Below are positions 1,492-48,456 of a DNA stretch of 64,000 nucleotides, piece after piece (the stretch's first letter is position 1; each line of letters opens with the position of its first letter). The position numbers were made by a program, and so were the translations under genes. This DNA comes from Rhodovibrio salinarum DSM 9154 (lineage in GTDB: Bacteria; Pseudomonadota; Alphaproteobacteria; Kiloniellales; Rhodovibrionaceae): NCBI RefSeq assembly GCF_000515255.1, contig NZ_KI911559.1:876344-940343 (forward strand), given 5' to 3'. Under the pieces are notes generated by a model. It was not told where the DNA came from. It searched no databases and was given only the letters and a program-made list of their open reading frames with translations.

Positions 1492-1566
1492 TCCCGGGTA
1501 GCTCAGTGGTAGAGCAATCGGCTGTTAACCGATTAGTCGGGGGTTCGAATCCCTCCCCGGGAGCCA
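1492..1566 (+). tRNA. tRNA-Asn (anticodon GTT)
   Basis: A complete cloverleaf can be drawn. The acceptor stem TCCCGGG (1492-1498) pairs with CCCGGGA (1556-1562), followed by discriminator G and an encoded CCA at 1564-1566. The D arm GCTC-AGTGGTA-GAGC, the anticodon loop CTGTTAA with GTT at 1524-1526, and the T loop GGTTCGAATCC are all present. A GTT anticodon reads asparagine codons AAC and AAU. It is divergent from cysD and convergent with the hicAB pair that starts 55 bases downstream. Confidence 0.97.
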
Positions 1567-1620
1567 TCTTTCGCAATCTTGTGATTTCTCTGAACTTTCT
1601 GGACGGTTCCGACCCGAGTT

Positions 1621-2022
1621 CTAGCCGACGCGATCGCCGCTCAACGCCCGGCGCGTGACGTGTGCAAGCCAGCCCGAGCGGGTGTAGCCCTCCCGCTGCG
1701 CGCGGTCGTCGATCCGACCCAGCAGATCCTCGGGCAGCGTGACGTTCACGCGCTTGACGTGAAGCGGACGGGTCGGCCCCTTGACCAGGATCAGGGTGGC
1801 GTCGGCGAAGTCCGGGTCCTGCGCGACCTGCTCCGGCGGCGTCGGCTCCGGCATCGTGCCGGCTTCCAGCATTTCCGTGCAGAACAGGGCAAGTGCTTCC
1901 TGGCCCATCTCGACCGCCTCGTCGACGGTCGCGCCCGCGGACACGCAGCCCGGAAAGTCCGGGAAGGAAATGCCGTAGTCGCTGTCCTCGTCTTTGTGTA
2001 GTGCGGCAACGTAGTAAGTCAT
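1621..2022 (-). CDS. hicB: HicB-type antitoxin with ribbon-helix-helix domain
   Basis: This is the antitoxin of a type II toxin-antitoxin pair. It binds and neutralises HicA and represses the operon. The 133-residue product has the N-terminal partially degraded RNase H-like HicB fold, with the hallmark FPDFPGCVSAG near residues 20-30 and a following helix of the type DEAVEMGQEAL. Its C-terminal ribbon-helix-helix segment begins VNVTLPEDLLGRID. The start chosen at 2022 has a good ribosome binding site (GGAG, about 8 bases upstream). It lies 14 bases after the hicA stop, in the toxin-first order usual for hicAB. Confidence 0.9.
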   Translation of the reverse strand: MTYYVAALHKDEDSDYGISFPDFPGCVSAGATVDEAVEMGQEALALFCTEMLEAGTMPEPTPPEQVAQDPDFADATLILVKGPTRPLHVKRVNVTLPEDLLGRIDDRAQREGYTRSGWLAHVTRRALSGDRVG

Positions 2023-4043: not shown

Positions 4044-5156
4044 ATGACCGTCACCCACCGGATTTCCACCGCGCTTGCTGCGGTTGCCGGCGTGCTTGCG
4101 GCCATGGCCGTAAGTCCGGCAAACGCCCAGGATGAGACGCTTAACGTTTACAACTGGTCTGACTACATCGCCGAAGAAACGATCCCGATGTTCGAGGAGG
4201 AATACGGGATCGAGGTCAACTACGATGTCTACGACGGCAATGCCGTCCTGGAAGGCAAGCTGATGGCCGGCAATACCGGCTACGACATCGTTGTGCCGAC
4301 CAGTGGTTTTTTCCAGCGCCAAATCCAGGCTGGGCTGTATCAGAAGCTCGACAAGTCCAAGCTGGACAATATGAAGCACCTGGATGCGGACATCATGGAG
4401 CGGATGGAGAAGTTCGATCCGGGTAACCAGTACGGCATCCCTTACATGTGGGGCACTAACGGGATCGGCTACAACGTCGGCATGGTCGAGGAGCGTCTGG
4501 GCGCGGATGCGCCAACCGATTCCTTCGATCTGCTGTTCGATCCCGAGGTGGTCGCCAAGCTCGAGGACTGCGGCGTCACGCTGCTGGACGAGCCGACCGA
4601 GGTTTATCCGCTGGTCAAGCATTACCTCGGCATCGACCCGGAAAGCGAGGACCCGGCGGACCTGGAGAAGGTCGAGCAGCACCTCAAGAAGATCCGACCG
4701 TACGTGAAGTACTTCCACTCCTCGCAGTACATCAACGATCTGGCGAACGGCGACATCTGCGTGGCGTTGGGCTGGTCCGGCGACGTCTACATCGCCCAGA
4801 CCCGCGCGGCGGAGGCCGATCAAGGGGTCGAGGTGGCCTACACCATCCCCAAGGAAGGGACGGTGCAGTGGTTCGACATCATGGCCATTCCGGCCGATGC
4901 GCCGCACCCGGATGCCGCCCACGAGTGGCTGAACTTCAACATGCGCCCGAAGATCGCTGCCCTGAATACCAACTACGTCTGGTACCCGACGGCGAACGCT
5001 GGGGCCGACGCGTACATCGACGATGAAATCCTGAACGACCCCTCAATCTATCCGCCGGAGGAGGTCAAGGAGAAGCTCTTCGTCGACGTGCCGAACTCGC
5101 CGAAGTACCGCCGGTTGCGGACGCGTAGCTGGACCTCGGTGAAGACCGGGATGTGA
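4044..5156 (+). CDS. potF: Polyamine (putrescine-type) ABC transporter periplasmic binding protein
   Basis: This periplasmic receptor delivers a polyamine to the PotGHI importer. The 370-residue product is the normal PotF length. A Sec signal peptide ends at ANA-QDE near residue 28, followed by LNVYNWSDYI, the standard beginning of mature PotF/PotD proteins. Also present are YDIVVPTSGFF, PYMWGTNGIGYN and VALGWSGDV. The ATG at 4044 follows GAGAGG. A TTGACA hexamer at 3893-3898, overlapping the stop of the previous gene, could be the -35 element, but the matching -10 is poor. It is separated from potG by 149 bases holding a strong hairpin. Confidence 0.94.
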   Translation: MTVTHRISTALAAVAGVLAAMAVSPANAQDETLNVYNWSDYIAEETIPMFEEEYGIEVNYDVYDGNAVLEGKLMAGNTGYDIVVPTSGFFQRQIQAGLYQKLDKSKLDNMKHLDADIMERMEKFDPGNQYGIPYMWGTNGIGYNVGMVEERLGADAPTDSFDLLFDPEVVAKLEDCGVTLLDEPTEVYPLVKHYLGIDPESEDPADLEKVEQHLKKIRPYVKYFHSSQYINDLANGDICVALGWSGDVYIAQTRAAEADQGVEVAYTIPKEGTVQWFDIMAIPADAPHPDAAHEWLNFNMRPKIAALNTNYVWYPTANAGADAYIDDEILNDPSIYPPEEVKEKLFVDVPNSPKYRRLRTRSWTSVKTGM

Positions 5157-44582: not shown

Positions 44583-45179
44583 CTAGCGCAGCCAGGCGAT
44601 TCGGCTGTCGGCGTCGTAGTGCAGCAGAATCCGGTCGGCCAGGCGGAACACCCGTTCGTGCTGTAGCGCCAGGAAGACGCCGGTATCGTTCAGCGCGACC
44701 GTGCCGACGGCCTGCGTCTCGTCCGCCAAACGCACCCGCCACATTTCCAGGTATAGCGCATCAAGGCCCCGCGCAGCGCGATCGAGCGCGGCGAGGAAGG
44801 CCCGCTCCCGGTAGGCCTGCTGGGTGGTTTCGTGCGGGGCGGGGGTATCCGCGATCGCCGCGCAGGTGCGCGTGACCCGACTCAAAAACGGCCGCCAGGC
44901 CGGATCGGCCAGACGCTTCTGCGCCCAGCCGCAGCCATAACTAACCGTTTCGAGATCGCGATCCGGCTGGGCGCTTGCCGCGGGGGCCGCTGATTGAGAC
45001 GACGTCTGGACGGCGGCGGACTGAAACGGCTCTGCCGTGGCCGTCGCGGCCATGAACGCGATCGCGAGTGCGATGATGCCCGCAAGGAGAAGTCCGCGAA
45101 CATCGGGTGTCGCGCGCACAGCGGCGCGCGGCGGACGGGGGTGGTGCATCCGGAATTGCGGGGGGCAGCGGTACAGCAT
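44583..45179 (-). CDS. Hypothetical exported protein
   Basis: A 198-residue protein of unknown function. A hydrophobic segment (GLLLAGIIALAIAFMAATATA, near residues 28-48 from the ATG at 45179) ends in a possible signal-peptidase site ATA-EP. The mature part has a Ser/Ala/Gln-rich linker, two cysteines that could form a disulfide (YGCGWAQKR and RTCAAIADT) and an alpha/beta C-terminal half. The chosen ATG has GGGAG upstream; an ATG at 45149 is possible. It lies 110 bases upstream of panE on the same strand. Confidence 0.6.
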   Translation of the reverse strand: MLYRCPPQFRMHHPRPPRAAVRATPDVRGLLLAGIIALAIAFMAATATAEPFQSAAVQTSSQSAAPAASAQPDRDLETVSYGCGWAQKRLADPAWRPFLSRVTRTCAAIADTPAPHETTQQAYRERAFLAALDRAARGLDALYLEMWRVRLADETQAVGTVALNDTGVFLALQHERVFRLADRILLHYDADSRIAWLR

Positions 45180-45461
45180 CGGCGGTCTCCCAAACCGGGC
45201 CCTGCACGCGGGCAGAACGTGATCGATGACCGCGCAGCGCACATCGGCGCTGCGGGCCAAGGTTCCCCCTCCCCAGGCACGTCATCCAGCCGCTCGCCCA
45301 CGGCAGGGCGATCAACCGGCGTCGTCTGCAAGCGATGACTGGTATAGGCTTGCAACCGGAGCTTCACAAAAGCTTAACATGCCCGCCTTGGCGAGAAGGC
45401 AGGTTTTCACCGTGTACCGCTTAAGGGGGATCAGGGCAGGGCGCCCGCTCGTGGGCTGAAC

Positions 45462-45640
45462 AAAAAAATGCCCCGGAACCGATAGGTTCCGGGGCAAGTC
45501 GAACAGGGAGGCTTCACGTCTGGGAGACGTAGGACCCGTAGGCCCTCTTCCGGGCAACGTGCCCGGAAAACACCGGCGAAAACGCCGGAAAACCAACGAT
45601 GCCGCGTTGCAGCATCCGTTACCCGTAATCTATTCACTCC
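45462..45640 (-). ncRNA. Structured small RNA candidate with intrinsic terminator (possibly 6S-like)
   Basis: On the minus strand five consecutive stem-loops are seen: 45598-45616 (7 bp), 45573-45588 (6 bp, CCGGCG/CGCCGG), 45548-45568 (8 bp), 45516-45530 (6 bp) and 45469-45496. The last is a 12-bp stem with 4-base loop, followed by seven T residues, a near-perfect terminator. No co-oriented gene ends here, so an independent non-coding transcript is the simplest reading. The segment 45507-45538 (GGGTCC, small hairpin, GAAGCCTCCC on the minus strand) recalls the GGTCC...GAAGCCT part of 6S RNA. That identity and the 5' end are tentative. Confidence 0.5.
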
Positions 45641-46044
45641 TATCCCTGAGAGAAGTGGTGAGGCGACACGGGTGCTATGCCGCTTCCGCATAGCTTTTGA
45701 ACCGGCAAGCAGTTACGGCTTCAAGAACCAACGCTGTGCGCCCCCACAGGGTTCGCACATACACAAATATGTCACACCTATTGGGTGCGACGACGACTGC
45801 ATTTGTGAGCTTTGGCTTTCTTGATGGGGCCAACTCCAGAAGGTCTGGGCTGGCATGCCATAGGCCCCGAAATGGGGCGTATCGTTTACGCCACGGGTAT
45901 TTTCCGGTGGGATAGACGAATCGGTTCGACCGCCTGCCAGGGGCAAGATCGGGCACGCTTGGCTCGTTGTGCCCGATCTTGCGTGAACAGCGACGTGGGG
46001 CGCGCGGCTCAGGTTGAAGGTGGATCGTCCTCAGTGATTGCGCG
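45641..46044. other. Gene-free stretch downstream of lysR with a 14-bp hairpin
   Basis: Together with the RNA candidate this is the longest region without a credible protein gene (45180-46044); 45180-45461 shows nothing recognisable. A perfect inverted repeat GCAAGATCGGGCAC / GTGCCCGATCTTGC (45943-45956 with 45969-45982, 12-base loop) lies about 60 bases after the lysR stop, without a T-run. It may help end lysR transcription. Short open frames here have no ribosome binding sites or family resemblance. Confidence 0.45.
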
Positions 46045-46935
46045 CTAGAAACGCGACTCCGCCACCTGGCGCAGCAGGAAGTCCCGGAACACCTGGATGC
46101 GCTTACTGGAGCGCATCTCTTCTGGATAGACGAAGTAGGCGTCGATCTGCGGCCCTTCGAGTTCCGGTAGCACGCGCACAAGGTCGTTGGCGCCCTGGAC
46201 CATGAACTCCGGCAGGGCGCCGAGCCCGACACCGTTCCGCACCGCGCGCATGATCGCGTAGACGTTGTTCACCGTCATCACCGGCCGGCGCAGCTTGCCG
46301 CTGTTCTGGCCCGTGCGCAGCAGCCAGTTCACATCCGGCACGGGCGGGCGCAGGTCGTCGCCGTAGACTACCACCCGGTGGTTGTCGATGTCTGCCGCGT
46401 CGTGGGGCATGCCGAAGCGCTTGATATAGCCCGGCGAGGCGTAGACGTGCATGTGCACGGTGAACAGGTGACGCTGGATCAGGTCGCCCTGGCGTGGCGG
46501 CGACAGGCGGATCGCCACGTCGGCCTCGCGCATCGACAGGTCGAGTTCCCGGTCCTCCAGCAGCATGTGCGTCTCGATCTCCGGGTAGACCTCGACGAAA
46601 TCGCCCATGCGCGGCGCCAGCCAGGTCGACCCGAGCGCAACCGTGGTGGTGATCCGCAGCGGACCTTTCGGGCGGTCCTTGCTCTCGGTCAGCTGCGCTT
46701 CGGTCATGGCGAGCTTGCCGAACACCTCGTGCGCGGTGCGGTACAGCAACTCGCCCTGTTCGGTCAGGATCAGACCGCGTGCGTGTCGGTGGAACAGCGG
46801 GACGCGCAGCGACTCCTCAAGCGCCGAGATCTGCCGGCTGACCGCCGATTGGCTCAGGTTCAGGAGATCGCCCGCGTGGGTGAAGCTGCCCGCCTCGGCT
46901 ACGGCGTGAAAGACGCGCAGCTTGTCCCAGTCCAT
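46045..46935 (-). CDS. LysR-family transcriptional regulator
   Basis: A 296-residue regulator. The N-terminal winged helix-turn-helix (WDKLRVFHAVAEAGSFTHAGDLLNLSQSAVSRQISALE) is followed by the linker helix and a periplasmic-binding-like effector domain with TTVALGSTWLAPRM and GLGALPEFMV. The start at 46935 gives the standard family N terminus. The frame remains open upstream, with an ATG at 46992 that would add a Gly/Pro/Ser tail. It is co-oriented with trxB 310 bases upstream. LysR regulators often control divergent genes, but none is divergent here, so the target is unknown. Confidence 0.9.
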   Translation of the reverse strand: MDWDKLRVFHAVAEAGSFTHAGDLLNLSQSAVSRQISALEESLRVPLFHRHARGLILTEQGELLYRTAHEVFGKLAMTEAQLTESKDRPKGPLRITTTVALGSTWLAPRMGDFVEVYPEIETHMLLEDRELDLSMREADVAIRLSPPRQGDLIQRHLFTVHMHVYASPGYIKRFGMPHDAADIDNHRVVVYGDDLRPPVPDVNWLLRTGQNSGKLRRPVMTVNNVYAIMRAVRNGVGLGALPEFMVQGANDLVRVLPELEGPQIDAYFVYPEEMRSSKRIQVFRDFLLRQVAESRF

Positions 46936-47245: not shown

Positions 47246-48214
47246 TTATTGCGCCGCCTCGCTCGGCGCGATCTCCTGCTCGGCCAGGAACTTTTCCGCC
47301 TCCAGCGCGGCCATGCAGCCCATGCCGGCGGCCGTGACCGCTTGACGGTAGACCTTGTCGCGCACGTCGCCGGCGGCAAAGACGCCTGGGATCTTGGTGG
47401 CAGTGGAATCCGGGGCGGTGAGGATATAGCCCTCGTCATCCATGTCGAGCTGGCCTCGGAACAGCTTGGTCGCCGGGTCGTGGCCGATCGCGATGAACAC
47501 ACCGGCGAGCGGCAGCTCGTAGCTCTCGCCGGTCTTGCGCGACTTCAGCCGTACGGCCGTTACGCCGGGCGGGTTCTGTTGCCCCAGGATCTCGTCGACC
47601 TCGTGCGACCAGGCAACGTCGATCTTCGGGTTGTTGAACAGGCGGGTCTGCAGCGTTTTGTCGGCGCGTAGCTCGTCGCGCCGGTGCACCAGCGTGACCT
47701 TGTTCGCGAAGTTGGTCAGGAACAGTGCTTCCTCGGCGGCCGTGTTGCCGCCGCCCACCACGGCCACTTCCTGCCCGCGGTAGAAGAAGCCATCGCAGGT
47801 CGCGCAGGCGGAAACGCCGGCGCCCATGAAGGTCGTCTCGCTCTCCAGCCCCAGCCAGCGGGCCTGCGCACCGGTCGCGATGATCAGCGAATCGCTCCAA
47901 TAGACAGTGCCCGAATCGCTATCGCAGCGGAACGGCCGATGCGACAGGTCGACGTGGGTGATGATGTCCTGAATGATTTCGGTGCCGACGTTGCGGGCCT
48001 GCTGCTGCATCTGCTCCATCAGCCAAGGGCCCTGGATCGGATCGGCGAAACCGGGATAGTTCTCGACGTCGGTGGTGATCGACAGCTGACCGCCCGGCTC
48101 CAGCCCCTGGACCAGCACCGGCTTGAGGTTGGCCCGTGCGGCGTAGACGGCGGCGGTGTAGCCGGCCGGCCCGGAGCCGATGATCAGAACCTTGTGGTGG
48201 CGTTCGTCGGCCAT
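47246..48214 (-). CDS. trxB: Thioredoxin-disulfide reductase
   Basis: This flavoenzyme passes electrons from NADPH to thioredoxin. The 322-residue product has the FAD motif VLIIGSGPAGYTAAVYAARA and the redox-active CATC in SACATCDGFFYRG. It also has the NADPH motif VAVVGGGNTAAEEALFL, HRRDELRADK, and the C-terminal GVFAAGDVRDKVYRQAVTAAGMGCMAAL. The start at 48214 has AGGAG upstream. It is divergent from a sensor kinase gene across 242 bases. Confidence 0.96.
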   Translation of the reverse strand: MADERHHKVLIIGSGPAGYTAAVYAARANLKPVLVQGLEPGGQLSITTDVENYPGFADPIQGPWLMEQMQQQARNVGTEIIQDIITHVDLSHRPFRCDSDSGTVYWSDSLIIATGAQARWLGLESETTFMGAGVSACATCDGFFYRGQEVAVVGGGNTAAEEALFLTNFANKVTLVHRRDELRADKTLQTRLFNNPKIDVAWSHEVDEILGQQNPPGVTAVRLKSRKTGESYELPLAGVFIAIGHDPATKLFRGQLDMDDEGYILTAPDSTATKIPGVFAAGDVRDKVYRQAVTAAGMGCMAALEAEKFLAEQEIAPSEAAQ

Positions 48215-48456
48215 GTCGGCGGCACTCCTTCGCGCTCTCGTCGTCGCGCGGCCGGGCATGGCGCGCGATGGGCAGTGATGGGCGGGGCGACTCGGCAGGC
48301 CCGAGATCGTCGGCCGCCCGATTGTCGTGGTGTCCGATGGAACTGCTAAGGTAAGGGTGCTGTTGCCCCGGCGCAACGCATCGCGGGCGATCGTCGCAAC
48401 GCGGTGAGAAGTGGCGCGAACGGGATTGCCAGAGCGTGCTAGGCTGCCGCCCGCCC

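Follow-up and report, generated by a model that had tools for sequence, protein, structure and literature searches.

We identified, in the 64,000 nucleotides of Rhodovibrio salinarum DSM 9154 DNA analyzed here (the window), a small RNA gene that is very probably an LsrB-activated AbcR-type transporter-silencing sRNA and the positional counterpart of AbcR1/2 (ar15). Members of the ar15 family have been described in most Rhizobiaceae and Brucellaceae. In rhizobia and Brucella, the AbcR RNAs turn off nutrient-uptake genes. Judged by its position, promoter, motifs, and predicted targets, the RNA of the window appears to work like AbcR. The gene spans 45463..45620 on the minus strand; the transcript of ~157 nt has its start inferred from a -10 box and its end set by the T-run of a terminator, while its promoter and activator site lie just outside (to 45694). 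The earlier note on this DNA had proposed an unannotated small RNA at 45462-45640. Its coordinates were good, the transcript being placed at about 45620-45463, and an unannotated structured RNA was indeed found: no Rfam family matched at threshold, covariation was strong, and conservation was class-wide. The surrounding protein-free gap, given there as 865 bases, measures between 784 and 865 bases, according to which start is assigned to the ORF at 44583-45260.

Folding of the minus strand from 45620 to 45463 revealed consecutive hairpins with the terminator last. The chain of hairpins on one strand was thus correctly recognized in the earlier note, but not their number, since the fold contains six (five hairpins plus the terminator) instead of five. 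The fold energy of the region was -88.2 kcal/mol, compared to -61.0 ± 4.2 kcal/mol for dinucleotide shuffles (z = -6.6; 0 of 200 shuffles). Near the 5' end, the predicted hairpin 1 (GATGCTGC-AAC-GCGGCATC) occupies 45598..45616 and is followed by hairpin 2 (CCGGCG-UUUU-CGCCGG; 45573..45588), hairpin 3 (10 bp; 45547..45569), and hairpin 4 (AGGGCC-UACG-GGUCCU; 45531..45546). Hairpin 5 (ACGUCU-CCC-AGACGU; 45516..45530) displays CUCCCA, the first anti-Shine-Dalgarno motif. It is followed by the nearly invariant single-stranded seed GAAGCCUCCCUGUUCGACU (45497..45515), which contains the second anti-Shine-Dalgarno motif and pairs with the leaders of genes for ABC substrate-binding proteins (SBPs). 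The intrinsic terminator (45462..45496) consists of a perfect 12-bp stem (45496-45469) and a run of seven T (45468-45462). Both GGGTCC and GAAGCCTCCC, which the earlier note had named, are present on the minus strand. A protein-coding reading of the region is disfavored: small ORFs cross it, but its relatives show length changes, and the hairpin layout is strict.

The element was present in 54 of 58 relatives from the same order (621-base query), and a covariance model of the 3' core of the RNA had matches in 199 of 387 genomes sampled throughout the class Alphaproteobacteria. The named contigs with the RNA belong to Azospirillum, Roseomonas, Reyranella, Kiloniella, Pelagibius, Thalassospira, and others, all of them Alphaproteobacteria. 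Within the order, a 40-nt core is nearly invariant, including the stretch CC.ACGUCUCCCAGACGUGAAGCCUCCCUGUUC.ACUUGCC, whereas hairpins 1 to 4 and the terminator differ in their letters and retain their pairing. Six hairpins were predicted in 20 and five in 5 of 25 same-order sequences, with differing stem sequences. In these 25 order members, 92.4% of the hairpin 1 cells were paired, with weak covariation. At the position of hairpin 2, most relatives have a hairpin of different sequence, and other perfect hairpins replace hairpin 3. The loops of hairpins 2 to 4 in order relatives (L016, L024-L030) often consist of C runs (CCCCCC, CCCUCCC) that may offer additional pairing sites; the copy in the window has none there.

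Covarying stems in related genomes, which the earlier note had suggested looking for, were found. In 84 homologues, 13 of the 14 modelled pairs were changed on both sides and 97.7% of the cells were paired, in an alignment that was fitted to the model and therefore favors its structure. Double-change cells numbered 216, compared to 61 after shuffling and to at most 54 for slid partners, a control that preserves relatedness. Hairpin 5 is invariant in the order, and class-wide all 7 of its pairs were changed on both sides; the same was true for 6 of the 7 modelled terminator pairs. Tandem sRNA copies a few hundred bases apart, comparable to AbcR1/AbcR2, were observed at five loci (L006, L047, L048, L067, and L212). 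In the second copy of L048, hairpin 5 is preserved by compensatory changes (GUGUCUCCCAGACAC).

The neighborhood places the RNA next to a known regulator. The gene order on the minus strand is trxB, lsrB, RNA, with the RNA directly downstream, which is the position and strand that ar15 RNAs occupy relative to trxB-lsrB/vtlR. The trxB gene (47246..48376) encodes thioredoxin reductase (TIGR01292, 409 bits, above cut-off) and lies upstream of lsrB, as it does in Rhizobiales. The lsrB/vtlR orthologue (46045..46935, LysR regulator) is in an ORF open to 47106 and likely starts at M58. The closest solved relative of its product is 9hh1 (346 bits, compared to 115 for the next PDB match), which is LsrB of A. 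tumefaciens (PMC11975290). In the Rhizobiaceae genome G418, the best match of the window LsrB (340 bits; next, 140) lies at the ar15 locus, directly ahead of a tandem pair of ar15 copies on the same strand, a layout that corresponds to the order trxB-vtlR-abcR1-abcR2 of Agrobacterium (PMC7486931). Just downstream of the lsrB stop, the window contains a perfect 14-bp inverted repeat without a T-run (GCAAGATCGGGCAC/GTGCCCGATCTTGC; 45943-45982), perhaps a 3' end signal of trxB-lsrB.

This arrangement is widespread. In the 96 named loci that extend 1.5 kb or more upstream of the RNA, lsrB was located upstream on the same strand in 85, at a median distance of 213 nt, and trxB lay beyond it in 74; lsrB in any other arrangement was found in none of the 96. 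Some copies are up to ~2 kb from lsrB (L111, L165). At lsrB loci of other families, SorX (above threshold; L229) and a SorY-like RNA (62 bits; L228) occupy the same place in two genomes, six loci (L212, L214, and L216-L219) contain diverged, partly multi-copy relatives of the window RNA, and no such RNA was visible at L222, L223, and L226. Separately, RNA copies without lsrB upstream were observed at L080, L099, L100, L103, and L117, including Caedibacter and Caedimonas MAGs and a Reyranella MAG.

Aligned upstream regions revealed a -10 box, TAGATT (45627..45632, minus strand); many members of the order have such a box (TATNTT/TAGATT) with the same spacing to hairpin 1. The -35 region (CTTCTC, ~45650-45655) is weak, as at activator-dependent promoters, and a sigma-70 consensus search upstream of the RNA yielded no match. 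A predicted LysR-type (LsrB) box, GCTATGC-N7-GCATAGC, forms a 21-bp palindrome (45674..45694) centered ~64 bp upstream of the inferred start. The core ATGC-N7-GCAT was found in 119 of 158 homologous upstream regions, compared to 0.5 in shuffles and at most 7 for other spacers. The match of the window to the published box GCAT-N3-TG-N3-T lacks the TG (GCATAGCACCCGT), and the conserved palindrome is at that place. In S. meliloti, PabcR1 has an LsrB motif at -61 to -49, without which its activity drops more than 22-fold (PMC8844928).

At Rfam thresholds, a tRNA was the sole match in the whole 64-kb window, and the RNA yielded no match in 20 relatives. Under lax limits, the best minus-strand matches were subthreshold and included anti-Shine-Dalgarno RNAs: RF00519 (mmgR/suhB, alpha-r8) aligned over the 3' module with 27.6 bits (threshold, 41; E 0.0044 on 2 kb), SorX (RF02784) reached 26.9 bits (threshold, 46.6), and SorY (RF02651) reached 24.7 bits (threshold, 111). 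The ar15/AbcR model (RF02345; threshold, 40 bits) had no match at E ≤ 10 in genome or window. Since the ar15 model failed, we regard the RNA as a new variant of LsrB-linked anti-Shine-Dalgarno sRNAs and not as a formal ar15 member. The suggestion of a "new family" in the earlier note is thus half right: Rfam has no family for the RNA, which stays below the thresholds for ar15, mmgR, SorX, and SorY, yet its position, regulator, motifs, and predicted targets mark it as the AbcR-type RNA of this lineage. In the literature search, no report of the RNA was found, and the main text of an Azospirillum sRNA study did not contain the core sequence.

The window RNA shares with AbcR1/AbcR2 of the Rhizobiales the trxB-lsrB-sRNA order and strand, a putative LsrB-type box near -60, a hairpin loop with CUCCCA, another C-rich motif that is single-stranded, its own terminator, tandem copies in some species, and ABC transporter targets, which for the window RNA are predicted. 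It differs in having six hairpins instead of the three stem-loops of ar15, in being ~40 nt longer, and in its lack of a score with the ar15 model. In Brucella, AbcR pairs through CUCCCA (M1) in a hairpin plus a second single-stranded motif (PMC5461406), and AbcR1/2 of S. meliloti likewise use one loop and one single-stranded site (PMC8844928). The window RNA also has two anti-Shine-Dalgarno motifs, the M1 6-mer CUCCCA in the hairpin 5 loop and single-stranded GCCUCCCUG; the latter differs from the AbcR M2 motif GUUCCC in sequence and in place, being beside the terminator after a hairpin. With SorX/SorY of Rhodobacter, which are shorter, it shares a CCUCCCUGUU..ACUU module ahead of the terminator. 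SorX and SorY regulate polyamine transport and the TRAP transporter takP (PMC7074977, PMC6238624), the kinds of target predicted for the window RNA. The Xanthomonas RNA sX13 similarly combines a hairpin chain with C-rich sites that pair with G-rich ribosome-binding sites (PMC3771888), but belongs to another class and an unrelated locus (polA) and gave no Rfam match here. Synteny makes common descent of the window RNA and AbcR likely, although a short C-rich motif could converge.

To characterize the predicted targets, the leaders of 24 ABC SBP genes of the genome were compared to those of 41 other genes, controls that came from one 64-kb window and had mechanically chosen starts. The seed paired with the SBP leaders on average 5.0 kcal/mol better than with the others (p = 1.3e-5), and the preference persisted among strong-SD genes alone (p = 1.8e-4). 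Furthermore, none of 300 flank-shuffled seeds with intact CCUCCC reached this difference. CAGGGAG or AGGGAGGC was present in 7 of the 24 SBP leaders and in 0 of the 41 others. One predicted target, an ABC SBP gene (PF13416), lies in the window (4044..5156, plus strand), and the duplex of its leader CGAACAGCGAGAGGCUUGAUG with the seed has a predicted energy of -25.0 kcal/mol. Elsewhere in the genome, 16 near-perfect seed complements were detected. Five of them are exactly on a Shine-Dalgarno site. Four of these sites belong to transporter genes, which encode two PotD-like SBPs, a DctP TRAP receptor, and a BCCT carrier, and the fifth to the gene for a [2Fe-2S] oxidoreductase subunit. The raw count of complements (17, compared to 2 for the reversed pattern) was dropped as target evidence because a comparable excess (ratio 4.5 vs 6.3) is seen in genomes that lack the RNA. 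A genome match at 553688 beside an SBP gene was rejected as a target, since it falls within another C-rich element with a terminator. This second unlisted sRNA-like element (L180 ~1501-1640, minus strand; G000:C1 ~553651-553790), outside the window, has a GC-rich hairpin whose loop is very rich in C (CCUCCCCUCCCC), followed by AGCCUCCCUGUCCUUG and a strong terminator, adjoins an ABC SBP gene, and may be another anti-Shine-Dalgarno RNA.

The subthreshold RF00519 alignment over the 3' module raises the question of whether the RNA is instead a copy of the alpha-r8 (mmgR/SisA) family, which we consider improbable. Alpha-r8 RNAs (mmgR, SisA-D) resemble it in their hairpin, single-stranded CCUCCCU core, terminator, and anti-Shine-Dalgarno action. 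Moreover, alpha-r8 and ar15 are related, since RF00519 also matches the ar15 copies of G418 (58 and 54 bits) and both families are in clan CL00108. However, the window RNA stays under the 41-bit threshold, and the genome has a better RF00519 match of its own (E 2.1e-8), so that its alpha-r8 copy lies at a different locus. Alpha-r8 is linked to N-formylglutamate amidohydrolase, without a shared promoter motif (PMC12559287), whereas the window RNA is tied to lsrB and the box. The location downstream of lsrB on the same strand, in every named locus that has lsrB, would also suit an RNase E product of the lsrB mRNA 3' UTR, in the manner of SorX, which is cut from RSP_0847. Such an origin is unlikely in view of the -10 box, conserved and constant in its distance from hairpin 1, of the predicted activator box that lies between lsrB and the RNA, and of those copies that are up to ~2 kb from lsrB (L111, L165) or have none.

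On the other side of the RNA, the ORF at 44583-45260 (minus strand, 225 aa; its reality and start are uncertain) begins ~200 bases downstream on the same strand, so the hairpins could be imagined as its cis-acting attenuator or leader. This is very improbable: a strong terminator follows the RNA, a Pfam search of the ORF gave no match, lsrB is on the other side of the RNA in most loci, and the related RNAs ar15 and SorX/Y act in trans. Least credible of all is a diverged 6S RNA, which the earlier note had raised on visual resemblance. The covariance-model search that it proposed, against 6S and all RNA families, found nothing above threshold at the RNA and no 6S match even at E ≤ 10. In addition, the fold has no long closing stem with a central bubble, and the context differs. 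The GAAGCCUCCC stretch, taken for part of 6S RNA, is instead the single-stranded anti-Shine-Dalgarno segment.

For the favored LsrB-activated, AbcR-type sRNA, we propose the following mechanism. LsrB, encoded just upstream, would bind the ATGC-N7-GCAT box ~64 bp ahead of the RNA start and activate the promoter with its weak -35 region, and the ~157-nt transcript would stop at its own terminator. The CUCCCA of the hairpin 5 loop and the single-stranded motif would then pair with ribosome-binding sites of transporter mRNAs, above all those of ABC SBPs (polyamine-type included), and also of the TRAP solute receptor and the betaine transporter. This pairing is predicted to block their translation, probably with Hfq. 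Transcription of the RNA, binding of LsrB and Hfq, and target repression are all predictions of this model, which builds on the conserved structure, class-wide conservation, synteny, box, motifs, and excess complementarity to SBP leaders.

In A. tumefaciens, LsrB acts as a thiol switch for which C273 is important, according to a 2025 paper that also described LsrB as unique to Rhizobiales (PMC11975290). The window LsrB, from M58 on, contains no cysteine and hence neither C144 nor C273 for redox sensing; therefore, thiol redox sensing cannot be its signal, which must differ from that of Rhizobiaceae LsrB. Among the orthologues from sRNA loci and from lsrB loci, 87 of 137 distinct sequences have no cysteine at all, and a cysteine at the C273 position is confined to the Rhizobiaceae sequence. 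Accordingly, the association of LsrB with an sRNA extends beyond the redox switch, and the published thiol-switch model cannot hold for the mostly cysteine-free orthologues outside Rhizobiaceae.

AbcR RNAs have been studied as regulators of virulence and symbiosis in rhizobia, Agrobacterium, and Brucella. Our results place the LsrB-sRNA pair in Kiloniellales, Azospirillum, Acetobacteraceae, Thalassospira, Reyranella, and others, in which the RNA and the role of the regulator are unannotated. We lean, by a modest degree, toward LsrB with an adjacent anti-Shine-Dalgarno RNA that silences nutrient uptake being an ancestral module of Alphaproteobacteria. AbcR1/2, the lsrB-linked SorX/SorY-type RNAs, and the family of the window would then be a single gene in different lineage forms. 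The ancestral LsrB would have sensed a signal other than thiol oxidation, the cysteine switch having arisen late in Rhizobiaceae. The RNA supplies testable targets and connects AbcR with SorX/SorY, and the data suggest that the old function of the pair lies in the restriction of nutrient uptake rather than in host interaction or thiol sensing.
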